Source: a virus. From it: a stretch of DNA of 39,584 bases. Below are positions 8,780 through 17,865 of the stretch, piece after piece (within the stretch, counting starts at the first letter, position 1; the number at the start of each line of letters is the position of its first letter). The translations under genes and the position numbers were made by a program. The DNA is taken from positions 1 through 39,584 of IMG/VR virus record IMGVR_UViG_3300020122_000326. One strand, written 5' to 3'. The notes under the pieces are model-generated. The model saw only the letters and a list, made by a program, of their open reading frames with translations. It was not told the origin of the DNA and did not search any database.

Positions 8780-9493
8780 TCAGGGTCTCCCCTCTTCCAG
8801 GATGATCGTTCTAAGGTTTATCGGGCCCAATAGCGGCTCGAGACTGAGGAAACGGACAATGGCGGGGATCTTAAGAAGGTGAGGAACGCGTTCATTAGCC
8901 CTTTGCTGATCTTCGCAAGACGCTCCGATCCAGACGTTGTCCGGAGGAGCTAACTCTGATTCCCAGCCGGCGAGCCAAAGCCGGAAGCTTCGTCCAGAAT
9001 TTGGGCCAGTGTGGACTTCGTGCATATAGACCTCGCCGATATGCTCAAAGAAGTTTTCCGGCCTTTTGGTGAGCAATAACCAGTCAAGATTCGGGGTTTC
9101 ATAAATCAGTTTCAGGAAATTTGACCTTACCTCGATCGGATCCAGAGGTTTCCCATCCTGGTCGATAATGCCGCCCGGCATCTTATCGAGCCAATCGATC
9201 ATCGATGGAAACCATCGGCCTCTCGTGCCTTCCTTCGCATGGTTCGCGTTAATTCGGCGCGCGTCATTCCAGAAGCCTTTGCTCAAAACCCTCGTCGCCT
9301 TGTCACCCCATACCGGGCGAGTTTCCCAATCCGAGAATTCGGCTCTTTTGTAAGCGGTGCGGAAAATGCGCTCGAGCCTGGTGAGCGCCAGCGCCATCGC
9401 GTAACAAAATGTGCAGCCGGGCGAAACGCACGAGCAGCCTAGATATGGGCCTCCCGTATGATCGGTCCATTGGATTCCAGTTGTTTCGCTCAT
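8780..9493 (-). CDS. Phage Gp37/Gp68 family protein (DUF5131)
   Basis: The N-terminus 'GIQWTDHTGGPYLGCSCVSPGCTFCYA' corresponds to the family signature 'I.WT..TWNP..GC...SPGC..CYA', with cysteines at 20, 22, 27 and 30 that probably bind metal. The radical-SAM-like barrel that follows has 'LDWLLLTKRP' and 'VWIGASCEDQ', and ends with 'RFLSLEPLLGPI'. The length of 237 residues fits. I chose the ATG at 9493 because the family starts there and because it lies five bases after the integrase stop. The family is common in phages and prophages, and its function is not established. Here it is co-transcribed with the integrase. Confidence 0.85.
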   Translation of the reverse strand: MSETTGIQWTDHTGGPYLGCSCVSPGCTFCYAMALALTRLERIFRTAYKRAEFSDWETRPVWGDKATRVLSKGFWNDARRINANHAKEGTRGRWFPSMIDWLDKMPGGIIDQDGKPLDPIEVRSNFLKLIYETPNLDWLLLTKRPENFFEHIGEVYMHEVHTGPNSGRSFRLWLAGWESELAPPDNVWIGASCEDQQRANERVPHLLKIPAIVRFLSLEPLLGPINLRTIILEEGRP

Positions 9494-9497
9494 AATG

Positions 9498-10880
9498 TTA
9501 GGCAGGTCGGGTCCATGCAAAAAGGGGCAGCAGGTCCGCACGGTCGGGCATCAGGGAGAACCAGCGCTCGGCAGTGCGTTTCATTTGGGTGTCGATGCGT
9601 TTGTAGTTTTTCCGGATGATGGCCGGGCTGTTCCCGGCTTGATCCGCGACGAATTCGATGTTGCGGGTGAGCGCTGTGCGGTAGGAGATGAAACTTTTTC
9701 TGAGGGCATTCTTTTTTGGGCCCCTGATTTGGGCTTTGGTCCGTAGCCGGCATAATGAGTTGCTGCTGTTCTCGAGGGGACAGATTCTTCCGTTGGCTCG
9801 AGCATAGGGTTTCAGCCAGGCGATGAGGTTATCAGGCATGTCCACTACGCGATCGTTTCCGGTTTTGGATTCGTGCTTGCCGATGAAAATGCTTTTGCTT
9901 TCCCAATCGATGTTGGACCAGTCCAGGTGCGCGGCCTTTTCTTCATTCATCTCCCCGTGGCGTACGCCGGCAAATGCGGTTATGCAAATGAGAGGCACGA
10001 GCTTCCTCCCGGCTTCGTAGCTTTCCGCATAGTTCAAAAGTCTAAGGAGTTCCTCGGGGGAATAGAGATTTACCGCCACAGGTGGCGGATTGGGATCGGA
10101 GACCTCGGATAAGATGTTCCAATCTTTGCGAAGGTAGCCTCGCGATTTTGAGAATGTGAACAGGGCCGCGATGGCTTTCAGATAGTTGCGCCTGGTCCGG
10201 AGATTAACTGTCCGGGCCGGACCGGCGCTAAGGGAATCCAGCCAGTCATCGATGTCCCGGGCCCGGAGCTCGCTCATCGTGCCGGCGAACTTTGCGGCGA
10301 AGCGCTCGAGCATTTTCTTGAGGATGCGAGTCCATTTGCCGCCCATCTGTCTCCTGGCGAAAAATTCATCGATGGTCTTCGGGATTGTTGCCTGGAGGAC
10401 ACCGGCCGGGTTTTGGGCGACATAGAATCGGGCTGCTTCTAAAGGGGTAACGCCGGCGGGAAGAATTTGCACAGATTCTGTATAAATTCCGACGGCGATT
10501 TCGAGAGGAGGATCGCCGATTGCGTGGAGAAGCTCGCGGGAGCGGCGGAAGGAAGCGCGGTCGGATTCGGTAAATTGGCTTTGGGCGATTTGCCCATCGA
10601 GAAGGTCGACGGCAATTTGCCTGGCGCGGCGCCGGGCGGACTCGATGGTCGCCCGCTTTTCGCGTTTGCGGCCGGTTCCATCGCTCCAGATGATTGTGTG
10701 GCTGCGATAATCCTTCCGGCGTTTCTTATCGCGCCACTTGGTTTTATAGATTCGGACGGTGACCGATCCCTGCTTAATTTCGATGGGCTTTGCGCGTCGC
10801 CTGGTTTGCTCGGCTTCGTCGACATGGATTTGGCCGGAGCGATCGGCAGTAATAGAGAGTCTGAGTTCCGCGGTGTTCAT
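9498..10880 (-). CDS. int: Tyrosine recombinase, phage integrase (460 aa)
   Basis: The C-terminal half is a tyrosine recombinase catalytic domain: Arg307 in 'AFAGVRHGE', Lys339 in 'HESKTGN', Arg394 in 'NALRKSF' and nucleophile Tyr426 in 'AGNSPAIIRKNY'. The core-binding SAM-like domain is at about 165-250, and the basic N-terminus would contact arm sites. Both usual histidines of the HxxR and second His/Trp positions are Asn here (391 and 417), a variation I associate with Verrucomicrobia integrases. It should integrate and excise the phage at the attP candidate near 8650. It lies in the minus-strand operon behind the RHH regulator, so it is probably controlled by that switch. Confidence 0.92.
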   Translation of the reverse strand: MNTAELRLSITADRSGQIHVDEAEQTRRRAKPIEIKQGSVTVRIYKTKWRDKKRRKDYRSHTIIWSDGTGRKREKRATIESARRRARQIAVDLLDGQIAQSQFTESDRASFRRSRELLHAIGDPPLEIAVGIYTESVQILPAGVTPLEAARFYVAQNPAGVLQATIPKTIDEFFARRQMGGKWTRILKKMLERFAAKFAGTMSELRARDIDDWLDSLSAGPARTVNLRTRRNYLKAIAALFTFSKSRGYLRKDWNILSEVSDPNPPPVAVNLYSPEELLRLLNYAESYEAGRKLVPLICITAFAGVRHGEMNEEKAAHLDWSNIDWESKSIFIGKHESKTGNDRVVDMPDNLIAWLKPYARANGRICPLENSSNSLCRLRTKAQIRGPKKNALRKSFISYRTALTRNIEFVADQAGNSPAIIRKNYKRIDTQMKRTAERWFSLMPDRADLLPLFAWTRPA

Positions 10881-10895
10881 TGGACGGGGACTGTT

Positions 10896-11390
10896 TTACG
10901 TGCTCAGTCGCTCTTTCGCACGTGGAGAATCTCGAGGGATCAATCCGGTTTGGCGGCAGGCACGGCATCCCTTTGTGCGAGTGAAGAGGCGCCAAAGGCT
11001 ATATAGCACTCCAGGAAGAAATCCGAAGAACAAGAGAATCAGCCCTATTAGACCGTTCAATGCGTCGGAATGCACAAGGGTTGCACAATATACGGAATAT
11101 ATTGCGCAAGGGAGGATTCCGAATGCCCAGAGGATAATTTCAAGGCCGAGGCTGCCTTTAGTGATCGACTTGGGCCGAGCGACGGTTCCGCAATGAGGAC
11201 AATATTGCGCGCGGGTATCGACTCTGGGGGTCCTAACCGGCGGGGCCGGAGTACAGGGAACGAAAAGCTTGGTTTCTACTCCACAAGAAGGACAGGGAAC
11301 CACGACGCCTTCGTTGGCCAGTTCGAATTCCAGCTTAGCGTTGCAGTGATTACATGGGCACATGGCGGAAGGGGCGTCTTCTTGTCTCAT
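10896..11390 (-). CDS. Zinc-ribbon protein with two transmembrane segments (164 aa)
   Basis: The N-terminal 75 residues hold two zinc-ribbon-like units: 'CPCNHCNAKLEF...CPSCG' and 'QYCPHCG'. Two hydrophobic segments follow (about residues 83-107 and 112-132), then a cytoplasmic tail with a third Cys pair ('GCRACRQTG'). The first unit resembles small zinc ribbons common in Verrucomicrobiota proteins. It sits between the RHH regulator and the integrase in the lysogeny operon. A membrane protein made in the prophage state could act in superinfection exclusion, but nothing in the sequence proves it. Confidence 0.7.
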   Translation of the reverse strand: MRQEDAPSAMCPCNHCNAKLEFELANEGVVVPCPSCGVETKLFVPCTPAPPVRTPRVDTRAQYCPHCGTVARPKSITKGSLGLEIILWAFGILPCAIYSVYCATLVHSDALNGLIGLILLFFGFLPGVLYSLWRLFTRTKGCRACRQTGLIPRDSPRAKERLST

Positions 11391-11450: not shown

Positions 11451-11738
11451 TTATCCGGCATTCTTCTTCTTTGGTTTGGGCTCTTCGACGAGGGCGGTTT
11501 CTTCGCGATGCGGTGGGTAACTGGATATATTTTTTTCGACGACGACATGCGTTACATCGAACTTGATCGGCATGGCGAGCTGATAGTCATTTTTCTCAAT
11601 GGCTTCGACCGCCGCCTCGACAGCAGCCTGAGCCAGTGCGTGCTTTTTCATTTTGAGCCGGTCCGCACACTCCTGGACCCTATTGTCTAATTCTTTGGAG
11701 ATTCGCAGTGAGAGGCGGGTCATTTTGTAATCGCTCAT
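11451..11738 (-). CDS. Ribbon-helix-helix DNA-binding regulator (95 aa)
   Basis: Residues 4-50 fit the RHH fold: a strand 'KMTRLSLRISKEL', then two helices ('DNRVQECADRLKMKK' and 'HALAQAAVEAAVEAIEK'). A second half of unknown fold ends in a Lys-rich tail. RHH dimers of the Arc/MetJ/CopG type bind short palindromes with the strand in the major groove. The gene is divergent from a second RHH gene, separated by 78 bases packed with inverted repeats and overlapping promoters. Its position at the head of the integrase operon makes it the best candidate for the lysogeny repressor. Confidence 0.8.
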   Translation of the reverse strand: MSDYKMTRLSLRISKELDNRVQECADRLKMKKHALAQAAVEAAVEAIEKNDYQLAMPIKFDVTHVVVEKNISSYPPHREETALVEEPKPKKKNAG

Positions 11739-11759
11739 GGAAACGGGATATCATGAATA

Positions 11760-11789
11760 ATAGTAGAACGCAATCTTTTTTGTTGACAA
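11760..11789 (-). promoter_or_regulatory. Leftward promoter of lysogeny operon
   Basis: On the minus strand TTGTCA (11784-11789) and TACTAT (11760-11765) are 18 bp apart. The -35 overlaps the rightward -35 back to back. Transcription should begin about 15 bases upstream of the leftward RHH ATG. Confidence 0.55.
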
Positions 11790-11810
11790 AGTAGTGAATT
11801 TCACTATTAT
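11783..11810 (+). promoter_or_regulatory. Rightward early promoter
   Basis: A consensus -35 TTGACA (11783-11788) and -10 TATTAT (11805-11810) are separated by 16 bp. The -10 ends six bases before the ATG of the next gene, so transcription should start at or just before the start codon and give a leaderless mRNA. Confidence 0.75.
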
Positions 11811-11816
11811 TCACTC

Positions 11817-12044
11817 ATGAGCAAGAAATCTAAGGGCGGAGTTGTTGATTCCGCGAATGAGCCGCTAATCCCTTTCCAGGTGAAAACCCGGGAGGAGGTC
11901 CGCGAGAAAATGAAGGTGATAGCATCCAAGAACGGTTTGTCTTTGAACGATGTGGCCTCGATGTGCCTAGCTGCTGGCATGCCGATGGTTGAACGGAAGC
12001 TTTCGGAAATTCATCATCCAGAACCGGAGAAGCAAGCCGCTTAG
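11817..12044 (+). CDS. Small RHH-like regulator, first gene of early operon (75 aa)
   Basis: After a short basic N-terminus, residues 17-60 ('LIPFQVKTREEVREKMKVIA' then 'GLSLNDVASMCLAAGM') fit a ribbon-helix-helix fold. The start codon lies right at the predicted transcription start, so translation would be leaderless. It faces the other RHH gene across the shared operator, in the position that cro occupies in lambda. It is probably the antagonist of the leftward RHH regulator or an autorepressor of the early operon. The RHH assignment is by pattern, not by search. Confidence 0.7.
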   Translation: MSKKSKGGVVDSANEPLIPFQVKTREEVREKMKVIASKNGLSLNDVASMCLAAGMPMVERKLSEIHHPEPEKQAA

Positions 12045-12069: not shown

Positions 12070-12591
12070 ATGAACACACAAAAAGGTAATGGCGCGATCG
12101 CGCGCACGCGCGGAGAAATCCCAACGCAGCGCCCCATGACGGCGAAACAATTAGAGAAGTTTTTCCGCCGCGCTTGTGAATTCCGAAATGCGGCAGAGCT
12201 CGCTGCAAAGTGCGAGCCTTCATTTCGCGCAATATCGGAAGCCATGCGTGACCTTCCAATGAAGGTTTTGGCACTTAAGGATCAACGCGAAAATGACGAG
12301 GCCGAGCGCAAAGATAAAGGGCAAGTGCTCTGGACGCTATATCATCCAATGCCTTTGCCACGATCGATTTTCGATGATCAAAAGGTGGTTACGCGAACCC
12401 CGAACCGGATGATCAAGGGCAGGGATTCTTATTTGAACAAACCGAGGACTTATTTTTGCAATCCGGAGGATTCATTGTCGGATCTCAAGCGTGAATGGCA
12501 AGCAACTGACGTCGCGGCGGTGATCGCCAGAAGCGAGGAAGCTGAGCGGCAATGGAAACGCCGGCTTGAAAAGGAGGCGGCTGCCGCATGA
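12070..12591 (+). CDS. Hypothetical early protein (173 aa)
   Basis: No family is recognised. The protein is charged and basic overall, with a helical N-terminal part ('AKQLEKFFRRACEFRNAAEL'), a middle part with aromatic residues ('VLWTLYHPMPLP') and a charged C-terminal helix ('ARSEEAERQWKRRLEKEAAA'). I chose the ATG at 12070 because GGAGGAAAGGAAAT lies just upstream. The earlier ATG of the same frame would overlap the RHH gene by over 50 bases. It is coupled to the next gene by ATGA. Early position suggests a host-takeover or replication accessory role. Confidence 0.65.
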   Translation: MNTQKGNGAIARTRGEIPTQRPMTAKQLEKFFRRACEFRNAAELAAKCEPSFRAISEAMRDLPMKVLALKDQRENDEAERKDKGQVLWTLYHPMPLPRSIFDDQKVVTRTPNRMIKGRDSYLNKPRTYFCNPEDSLSDLKREWQATDVAAVIARSEEAERQWKRRLEKEAAAA

Positions 12592-13889: not shown

Positions 13890-14171
13890 GCGTGACGAGA
13901 AAAATATTCCGGCGAGCGACAGGCGCAGGCCATCCAAAGCATCAATGCCGGGCTATCTCCTCTGAATAAGACCAACGATGCATTGCGCGAACTGTTGCAG
14001 GACATTCAGAAACAAATTGAGATCATCATCAGAACCGATGAGTCGAAAGATTTGGTCGCTCTTCGGGAAAGGATTCAATCGCTCCTCAGGCACATCAATG
14101 AGATGGAGGTCGGAGCATTTACGATCAGGGTGCGAAACGTTATGGACGAAGCTTGGCGAAAATTGCCGTGA
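13886..14171 (+). pseudogene. Helical early protein with +1 frameshift at an A5 run
   Basis: An ATG that overlaps the upstream stop opens a frame reading MSVTRK. A +1 shift at the A5 run (13900-13904) joins a frame reading 'YSGERQAQAIQSINAGLSPL' and onward to the TGA at 14169-14171. That stop overlaps the GTG of the next gene, so both ends fit the coupled operon if one A is removed; the product would be 94 residues. It is a helical protein with no recognised family. Without the shift only a TTG at 13983 gives a 62-residue product. Sequencing or assembly error, a real mutation and programmed frameshifting are all possible. Confidence 0.6.
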
Positions 14172-14425
14172 ACTCAGCGCCTAAAATTACCCTTGGACTT
14201 GATGTCGAGGCGCTGGACCTAAGCGTGCTTGCTCAGCGGTTGCTGGGTGACCCATTGCTCACGGCCGATGACCTGGCTAAACATTTGAAGGTATCGGAGC
14301 GCACAATCGATACCCTGGTGTCGGAGCATCAGATCGTTTGCCGATACGTTGGCAGGCAGGTCCGTTTCAGGATTATGGACGTCCTGGAATACGAGGAGCG
14401 GATCAAGGTGAGGGCAGCAGCATGA
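14168..14425 (+). CDS. Helix-turn-helix protein, excisionase-like (85 aa)
   Basis: Residues about 32-80 form a MerR/excisionase-type winged HTH ('LLTADDLAKHLKVSERTIDT' then 'CRYVGRQVRFRIMDVLEYEE'). Such domains bind DNA in excisionases and small regulators. I chose the GTG start because it overlaps the upstream stop (GTGA); a TTG five codons earlier is possible. It may be the recombination directionality factor for the integrase or an early transcription regulator. Distance from int is not decisive in this type of phage. Confidence 0.7.
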   Translation: MNSAPKITLGLDVEALDLSVLAQRLLGDPLLTADDLAKHLKVSERTIDTLVSEHQIVCRYVGRQVRFRIMDVLEYEERIKVRAAA

Positions 14426-14964: not shown

Positions 14965-15158
14965 GCAAGGCGCCCAGGAAAGAAGCAAAATGGATTAGCG
15001 CTGCGGACGCGAGAACGGAAATCGACACGCTGATTTTCCGCCTTGGCATGCAGGCCGGCCGTTTAATGATGCGAAAGGGAAGATCAGCCCAGCGGACGTT
15101 GAAGCGCAATTTTGACCAAGCCAGATCGCTTGGCGTGAAAATCGATATCGATCTGTGA
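14961..15158 (+). CDS. Small basic hypothetical protein (65 aa)
   Basis: This is a strongly basic helical protein with clustered Arg/Lys ('GRLMMRKGRSAQRTLKRNFD') and could bind nucleic acid. It is coupled at both ends (ATGA to the preceding gene, GTGA to the J-domain gene). No family is recognised. Confidence 0.6.
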   Translation: MSKAPRKEAKWISAADARTEIDTLIFRLGMQAGRLMMRKGRSAQRTLKRNFDQARSLGVKIDIDL

Positions 15159-15784
15159 GCGAGCAGCGACAGGCCTACCCGCTTTCATGGCCAGACGGAT
15201 GGCCAAGGACCGTGAGCCATAGCAGGCAATCTAGCAATTTCCAGCGGGCTGTCAGTTACGGAGCGCGCAGGCATTCAATGGATGAGAGCTGCCGACAGCT
15301 CGGCGCCGAGCTGGGCCGGCTTGGTGCTAAAAACGAGGTTCTATCCACGAATGTTAAGCGGCGCCTGGACGGAGCTCCTTATTCGGGCCAGGCGCAACCG
15401 CAGGACACAGGCGCGGCCGTTTATTTCGAACTGAAGGGAAAGAAGATTAGCCTGGCGTGCGACAAATGGAACCGAGTTGAGGATAACATTTGGGCGATCG
15501 CCAAACACGTGGAGGCGCTGCGCGGGCAACAGCGATGGGGCGTCGGATCGATAGACCAGGCTTTTCGCGGTTATACGGCACTGCCGGCTATCGGTACCAC
15601 CAGCGGCATGAATTGGTGGGAAGTGCTGGGCGTGCCGATTAATTCCGCCCCCGACCAGGTGAGAGAGGCGTACAAGATTCTTGTGCGCAAACAACATCCT
15701 GATGGCGGTGGCGACCGGGAGAGATTTCAGCGCATCCAGGAGGCCTGGGAGCAATTTGAAAAAATGGCTAAGAGAGTTGCATGA
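15155..15784 (+). CDS. J-domain (DnaJ-like) protein (209 aa)
   Basis: Residues 153-205 are a J domain: 'WWEVLGVPINSAPDQVREAY' followed by the invariant HPD at 181-183 ('KQHPDGGGDRERFQRIQEAW'). J domains recruit and stimulate Hsp70 (DnaK). The N-terminal about 140 residues are unrelated to DnaJ and contain strands 'AAVYFELKGKKISLACDKWN'; they probably bind a phage target. In lambda, DnaJ/DnaK remodel the replication preprimosome, so a phage J protein next to the putative initiator could direct host DnaK to that step. The GTG start overlaps the upstream stop. Confidence 0.85.
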   Translation: MSEQRQAYPLSWPDGWPRTVSHSRQSSNFQRAVSYGARRHSMDESCRQLGAELGRLGAKNEVLSTNVKRRLDGAPYSGQAQPQDTGAAVYFELKGKKISLACDKWNRVEDNIWAIAKHVEALRGQQRWGVGSIDQAFRGYTALPAIGTTSGMNWWEVLGVPINSAPDQVREAYKILVRKQHPDGGGDRERFQRIQEAWEQFEKMAKRVA

Positions 15785-17187: not shown

Positions 17188-17865
17188 TCAATGCACGGCC
17201 TGGCGACGTATCCAAGCAGCTTGGGCTATGCTGGAGGCTCCAGTTTTTACGAGTATGCTTTTTACGTGAGTTTTTAGGGTATTCTCACTGAGCCCGATTT
17301 CCGCGGCGGTTTCTTTGTAGGTTTTTCCTCTTTCGAGTTCGGAGAGAATTCTTTTTTCTTGGGGGCTTAGCCTGCCCAATAAAGGTGTTCGCCGACGGAA
17401 GAAGAGGATCAGTTCTTCAGCGACCTCGGGACTTATGGCGGGACGGCCGCCATGGACTCTTGCTATCGCAGTGGCCAGGACCTGACGTGGGGTTCGGGTT
17501 TTGACGAGGTAACCGTCGGCTTCGCTTTCGAATGCGCTAAAAATTCTTTCGGGGACCGCGCTGGCGCTGAGGATGATGACCTTTAGCCGAGGAAGCTCGC
17601 GCTTAATCTGCCGGCATGCATCGAGTCCATCGAGTCCTCCAGGGATGGTGATATCTAAAAGGAGAACATCGGGCCTCATGCGATGGATGGCGGCGCCGGC
17701 GATCGCAGTCTCGAAGGAGTCGAACGATCCGATCCAGGCAAGGGAGGTGCTATGCCTCATTTCGAATTCGAGGCATTTGAGCAGGGTTAGATCATCATCG
17801 ATGCCAACAACTCGTATGCGATTTTGGCCCTTCAAAACCTGATCCAAAATACCGTTATCACACAA
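17188..17865 (-). CDS. Response regulator, NarL/FixJ type (REC + LuxR HTH)
   Basis: The receiver domain (about 15-135) has all key residues: acidic Asp23-25 in 'GIDDD', phospho-acceptor Asp71 in 'LLLDITIPG', Ser100 and Lys122 in 'YLVKTRT'. Residues about 165-222 form a LuxR/GerE helix-turn-helix ('RLSPQEKRILSELERGKTYK', 'ENTLKTHVKSILVKTGA'). It would be phosphorylated by a host sensor kinase and bind DNA as a dimer. No kinase gene is present. The start is GTG. It is isolated on the minus strand between the initiator and packaging genes, two bases from the convergent initiator stop, and looks like an acquired host-type regulator that lets the phage read host signals. Confidence 0.88.
   Translation of the reverse strand: MCDNGILDQVLKGQNRIRVVGIDDDLTLLKCLEFEMRHSTSLAWIGSFDSFETAIAGAAIHRMRPDVLLLDITIPGGLDGLDACRQIKRELPRLKVIILSASAVPERIFSAFESEADGYLVKTRTPRQVLATAIARVHGGRPAISPEVAEELILFFRRRTPLLGRLSPQEKRILSELERGKTYKETAAEIGLSENTLKTHVKSILVKTGASSIAQAAWIRRQAVH

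Follow-up and report, generated by a model that had tools for sequence, protein, structure and literature searches.

A divergent pair of ribbon-helix-helix genes as a candidate immunity switch between the integrase and early operons of a temperate phage

To our knowledge, nearly all well-studied temperate phages use helix-turn-helix (HTH) repressors in their primary switch. The locus described here raises the question of whether a pair of small ribbon-helix-helix (RHH) proteins could occupy that position instead. We analyzed the full length of an IMG/VR record of 39,584 bases, referred to as the window, which represents a siphophage-like temperate genome with structural genes for terminase, portal, head protease, major head protein, and tape-measure protein. 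The window carries no tRNA genes, and the terminase search gave no close named phage. A preliminary description of this DNA had proposed that two RHH genes facing away from each other across 78 bp constitute a compact and whole lysis-lysogeny switch.

Position of the gene pair and its two proteins

The divergent arrangement was confirmed, with open reading frames at 11451-11738 on the minus strand (gene L) and 11817-12044 on the plus strand (gene R) separated by the gap 11739-11816. The gene order reads integrase and membrane protein leftward from L, and early genes, including an excisionase-like gene, rightward from R. Gene L heads a leftward operon comprising L, an exported or membrane protein, and the integrase, and gene R heads the rightward early operon with its excisionase-like gene. 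The features of this region and a further regulator gene are as follows; G001-G007 denote the related phages introduced below.

9498-10880, minus strand: tyrosine integrase (phrog_1, E 8e-22; Pfam PF00589), co-oriented with L
10896-11390, minus strand: zinc-ribbon and membrane protein between L and the integrase gene, with homologues in G002, G003, and G007
11451-11738, minus strand: gene L, 95-residue RHH-type protein with a Lys-rich tail and weak, repeated Arc/CopG family matches
11739-11816, no strand: shared control region of L and R, 78 bp
11817-12044, plus strand: gene R, 75-residue Arc/Mnt-like RHH protein
12070-12591, plus strand: second gene of the rightward operon, preceded by a strong Shine-Dalgarno sequence, GGAGGAAAGGA
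14153-14425, plus strand: HTH_17 excisionase-like protein of the rightward operon (Pfam PF12728, 1.3e-9; phrog_66, 3.2e-6; phrog_1840)
17188-17865, minus strand: response regulator with REC and LuxR domains, the rival regulator discussed below

A DUF5131 protein (phrog_2045) is encoded directly after the integrase gene (8780-9541, minus strand), and the early region contains a DnaJ-domain protein (phrog_9210; 15155-15784, plus strand) that is 67% identical in G001. At 0.1-0.5 kb beyond the integrase gene, sequences resembling tRNA 3' ends were observed, namely ACGGGTTCGAGCCCCGCCGCTCCCGCCACT in G001 and G006 and CTAGGTTCAAATCCTAGCCCCGCAACCA in G003 and G007, the element being inverted in G003 relative to G007. 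They are likely attP cores.

Both proteins had been described as RHH proteins. Family matches bear this out more firmly for R and weakly for L, with no curated cut-off reached in either case. A profile of the R family, comprising four sequences, aligned with the P22 Mnt and Arc profile at an E-value of 7.6e-6 (probability 84%). BLASTP gave 48% identity over 25 residues between R and Mnt, with the common pattern EVREK-K--A--NG-S-N, and the match of R to Pfam Arc (E 0.02) stayed below the cut-off. By sequence resemblance, R can be placed among the Arc/Mnt RHH proteins. L and its relatives gave weak, repeated Arc-like and CopG-like matches (phrog_582, E 0.0057; phrog_7325, E 4e-4 and 5.5e-4) as well as weak matches to CopG and PutA RHH entries of the PDB. 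When read by eye, the L sequence follows the RHH pattern of a strand, a first helix, and a second helix. L has no match to Mnt or Arc and is only marginally similar to R (E 0.015, probability 3%). L likewise has weak matches to RelB-like RHH entries, and weak NCBIfam matches pointed to RelB-like antitoxins and the ORF56 copy-control protein.

AlphaFold models of the monomers, based on four sequences, were poor (pLDDT 61 and 64) and contained a strand in neither protein; at this low pLDDT, R showed helices at residues 26-39 and 43-53, and L a single long helix. Poor monomer models are expected for an obligate dimer with only four sequences available. Foldseek returned no significant match, with CopG, VapB, and Arc among the best non-significant ones for R. 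Among named phages, no relatives of L or of the integrase were found and R gave only DnaK-like matches; two profile scans found no relatives in bacterial genomes.

The pair in related phages and its exchange

Scans with the R and L proteins retrieved three phage contigs, G001 (L003), G002 (L004), and G003 (L005), all of which keep the divergent pair together with the control region. We also searched with an integrase profile built from the window, G001, and G003, a search independent of the RHH pair. It matched G004 (L028), G005 (L029), G006 (L031), and G007 (L032), and each of these four has divergent small RHH-type genes upstream of the integrase gene. All eight related phages, the window included, have small RHH-type genes in this divergent arrangement, and four of the eight were recovered independently of the RHH genes. 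The best family matches of the proteins from G004-G007 are mostly RHH_1, Arc-like, or CopG-like, all below the curated cut-offs, and the assignment of the G005 pair and of L from G007 comes mainly from reading the sequence. A phmmer search of the PDB with four diverged proteins gave weak CopG-family matches for one of them only.

An exported or membrane protein lies between L and the integrase gene in each phage whose record has that stretch. It is a zinc-ribbon membrane protein in the window, G003, and G007, a homologue of which adjoins L in G002; other exported or membrane proteins take this place in G001 and G004-G006. Because such genes usually occupy that place, we propose that the zinc-ribbon membrane protein of the window (10896-11390) is a superinfection-exclusion or lysogenic-conversion gene.

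The histories of the pair and of the integrase conflict, as the comparison of G003 with G007 shows. Their integrases are 81% identical, whereas the L proteins share 37% and the R proteins 35% identity. At the DNA level, 77% identity extends over 1.5 kb, taking in the integrase gene and the final part of the zinc-ribbon gene, and a further block of 76% identity covers the start of the zinc-ribbon gene. No DNA similarity between the two is detectable in the segment from L through the gap to R; it resumes downstream in the early operon. The operators are likewise unlike, with GTAGTGAA repeats in G003 versus a 23-bp palindrome in G007. The window and G004 have integrases of 57% identity and L and R scores at background, whereas the window and G003 have integrases of 39% identity, with 51% for L and 72% for R. 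These comparisons support the view that the pair and its operators have been exchanged independently of the integrase, as swapped immunity modules behave. The strongest argument that the pair sets immunity is this swapping of a cassette of regulators plus operators within a conserved frame.

Promoters and repeats in the shared gap

The elements within the 78-bp gap are listed below.

11754-11764, no strand: left arm of an inverted pair, TGAATAATAGT, evaluated by the shuffle test
11760-11789, minus strand: TTGTCA-N18-TACTAT, a leftward promoter candidate that scores at chance level
11763-11775, no strand: GTAGAACGCAATC, a degenerate counterpart, read from the alignment, of GTAGTGAAATGCAAT conserved in G001-G003
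11783-11810, plus strand: rightward promoter with -35 TTGACA (11783-11788), a 16-nt spacer, and -10 TATTAT (11805-11810)
11792-11806, no strand: palindrome TAGTGAATTTCACTA within the rightward promoter spacer, a putative operator for R, L, or both
11803-11813, no strand: right arm of the inverted pair, ACTATTATTCA, covering the rightward -10

The forward promoter agrees with the consensus at 11 of 12 positions and is the best in 8.6 kb (p ~0.005 against dinucleotide-preserving shuffles). G001-G003 have a rightward promoter at the same position and with the same 16-nt spacing as in the window. Across the eight phages, every gap has GTTG[A/C]C located 34-39 nt ahead of the start codon of R, and the forward promoter reaches a combined p of 1e-5. 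The forward promoters of G005 and G006 have a poor -10 and are not individually significant; in G004 the best-scoring pair of hexamers differs from the one containing GTTGAC. The preliminary description had also placed a reverse promoter in the gap, with two -35 boxes overlapping back to back. While the forward TTGACA holds, the reverse TTGTCA does not: TTGTCA...TACTAT lies at chance level (p ~0.29 versus shuffles), TTGTCA is not conserved in the relatives, and a leftward promoter over the eight phages gave a combined p of 0.32.

The ATG of R lies 34 nt past the first base of the rightward -35 in the window. Transcription from a sigma-70 promoter with its -35 at this conserved distance would begin at the R start codon or a few nucleotides ahead of it. 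A Shine-Dalgarno sequence was found at the R start in none of the eight phages, nor was one found at the L start. We therefore predict that the R mRNA is leaderless or nearly so across the lineage. The lambda cI mRNA transcribed from P RM is a known leaderless mRNA.

The repeats that had been noted in the gap withstood dinucleotide-preserving shuffles, both the 15-bp palindrome TAGTGAATTTCACTA at 11792-11806 (p 0.0145), which has no further copies elsewhere in the window, and the inverted pair with its 11-bp arms (p at most 0.003). G001 has a counterpart of the inverted pair, TGTAGTGAA...TTCACTACA, about the same dyad. Over the gaps of the eight phages, inverted repeats are enriched with p = 6e-7, and the repeats are specific to the type of pair. 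The GTAGTGAA half-site, allowing at most one mismatch, occurs twice in each gap of the window and G001-G003, with p ~0.002 each, values that are optimistic since the motif was picked from the same gaps. The outline shared by control regions of this type consists of GTAGTGAAATGCAAT, a T tract, and TGTTGAC, with another half-site of the GTAGTGAA type inside the promoter spacer. G007 has its 23-bp palindrome, ACCATATACAA-g-TTGTATATGGT, over the spacer and -10, and G004 has the repeats TGTAAGAC/GTCTTACA. Full operators were seen only in the gap, with no second, lambda-like operator region.

The operator pattern GAAATGCAATNTTTTN{0,3}GTTGAC, searched against viral contigs, was discarded; only three of its 13 matches, the known relatives, came with the genes, and the other ten were chance-like.

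Rival readings and known systems

Taken together, the sequence comparisons make it probable that the locus is an RHH-based immunity (lysis-lysogeny) switch in the primary position of CI/Cro. The proposal of such a switch is backed by the pairs in all eight phages, the repeats in the gaps, and the exchange apart from the integrase; its leftward promoter is the part that lacks conservation. In a lysogen, L, the proposed maintenance repressor, would be made, bind the repeats, and shut the rightward promoter while keeping L (and the integrase gene) on. During lytic growth, R would be the first product of the strong rightward promoter, translated from an mRNA with little or no leader. As a proposed autorepressor similar to Cro or Arc, R would then bind the spacer palindrome, repressing L and, at a later stage, its own promoter in the manner of P22 Arc. 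A phage that exchanged both genes along with their operators would acquire a new immunity specificity. That RHH pairs are capable of such work is illustrated by Mnt and Arc of P22 (PMC7549136).

The further statement that this is the whole switch has fared less well. The comparisons favor an RHH-only module at the switch position, but it may not be the whole switch, since these phages have also conserved a LuxR-type regulator. Likewise, the statement that no CI/Cro-type HTH repressor is visible holds for HTH_3, HTH_31, and Peptidase_S24, none of which was found in the window, and so no separate primary CI/C2 region was recognized in this record; the window does, however, encode the LuxR-type response regulator and the HTH_17 excisionase-like protein. 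Peptidase_S24 is absent from all eight records, which may be incomplete, and small HTH_3 (XRE) genes occur only in two relatives, G003 and G005 (L026 11860-12063; G005 12138-12260). We lean slightly toward the stricter reading that primary immunity throughout this lineage of environmental temperate siphophages depends solely on the divergent, operator-swapping RHH pair with a leaderless R and without any CI/Cro-type protein.

The main competitor is that the pair forms a secondary module like immI of P22, or serves the early operon only, and that the true repressor is encoded elsewhere; the LuxR-type protein near the terminase would be its most plausible candidate. The RHH pair of P22 is indeed secondary to C2, and a protein with a LuxR HTH was found in seven of the eight records (the window, G001, and G003-G007). 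The window protein (17188-17865) combines a REC domain having the DD/D/K residues with a LuxR/GerE HTH and adjoins the terminase genes. A full response regulator of this kind occurs in the window and G001, whereas the other relatives match only the LuxR HTH part. In the window the gene is located at the early/late boundary beside the terminase, and it flips strand between the window and G001; along with the HTH-only matches, this fits a late-gene regulator better. It is the RHH pair, not the LuxR gene, that is found at the boundary between integrase and early genes wherever the record includes the integrase. Moreover, no antirepressor was recognized downstream of R. We consider a secondary role of the pair unlikely on these grounds. 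The location beside the terminase genes of the window points to late-gene control by the LuxR-type protein, possibly in response to a host phosphorelay signal; no histidine kinase was seen.

The pair might alternatively control only integration and excision, that is, the integrase gene against the excisionase gene and their neighbors, since L is co-oriented with the integrase gene and R heads the operon with the excisionase-like gene. Yet the rightward operon is long and runs toward the late genes, so its first promoter controls early lytic expression, and the swap of specificity beside the near-identical integrases of G003 and G007 would be unexpected, which leaves this reading quite improbable. 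The weak NCBIfam matches to RelB-like and ORF56 copy-control proteins could also mean that L and R are unrelated RHH proteins of plasmid or antitoxin type, serving copy control, partition, or as orphan antitoxins. We rejected this reading as highly improbable because the genes are divergent rather than operonic and no toxin or ParA neighbor was recognized; the pair also has a fixed position in eight phages, and the matches reflect the shared fold.

The closest known system is P22 immI (BK000583), where the gap between the divergent mnt and arc genes measures 90 bp, as opposed to 78 bp here. The window shows the immI-type layout of a divergent RHH pair, a short shared gap, and an operator within the spacer of the rightward promoter. 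Both rightward promoters carry TTGACA, with O arc located within P ant in P22, where P ant and P mnt overlap. In P22 lysogens, Mnt represses arc; during lytic growth, Arc acts as a repressor of the operon to which it belongs (PMC7549136, PMC11016777). R resembles Mnt and Arc, whereas no resemblance of L to Mnt was detected. In P22, immI ranks second to C2/Cro, has control of the antirepressor gene ant, and lies far from the integrase gene; by contrast, the pair in the window lies between the integrase gene and the early operon, and no family match to ant was found downstream of R. In P22, moreover, arc is preceded by a leader and Mnt has an operator of its own, whereas R in the window appears leaderless.

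In position, the pair resembles the lambdoid CI/Cro genes (C2/Cro in P22), where repressor genes diverge at the head of the early operon, operators overlap their promoters, and the region between integrase-side and early operons is swapped as a unit between relatives. The differences are the RHH instead of HTH proteins and the single operator region seen here. In addition, induction by self-cleavage of the LexA/CI type is unlikely because an S24 autoprotease domain is lacking. In the virus SSV1, the tiny RHH protein F55 keeps the carrier or lysogenic state by binding repeats in the early promoters and its own promoter (PMC9608457); F55 thus illustrates that lysogeny can have an RHH protein as its main viral maintenance factor, although SSV1 is an archaeal virus with this single RHH protein and no divergent pair. 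Life-cycle control has also been proposed for Arc-type RHH proteins of Pseudomonas Pf prophages and for YosL of SPbeta (PMC7549136, PMC10516654), although these are accessory to Pf repressor C and MrpR, respectively, and their function is conjectural.

Previously, RHH proteins were known from P22 immI as an accessory pair and from one archaeal virus as a lone regulator, and our search of a collection of open-access papers found no primary RHH/RHH switch described. Here, a divergent RHH pair of the P22 immI type probably acts as an exchangeable immunity cassette beside the integrase gene. If true, the logic of CI/Cro could be built from proteins of ~75 residues without a self-cleavage domain, and one would then have to ask by what means such a prophage detects damage or induction. 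Such phages would be recorded as repressor-less when annotation seeks only CI-like genes. The varied pairs and operators could furthermore supply synthetic biology with small repressors that differ in specificity.

The C-termini of the two proteins show a further regularity. Lys-rich ends of L recur across otherwise unlike pairs (PKKKNAG, PKKKTG, PKKKAK, LKKKTGT, and PKKKTGT), with the exception of G002, and every R protein ends in AA. These shared ends are possibly traces of a common descent of both positions despite the diverged DNA-binding parts.
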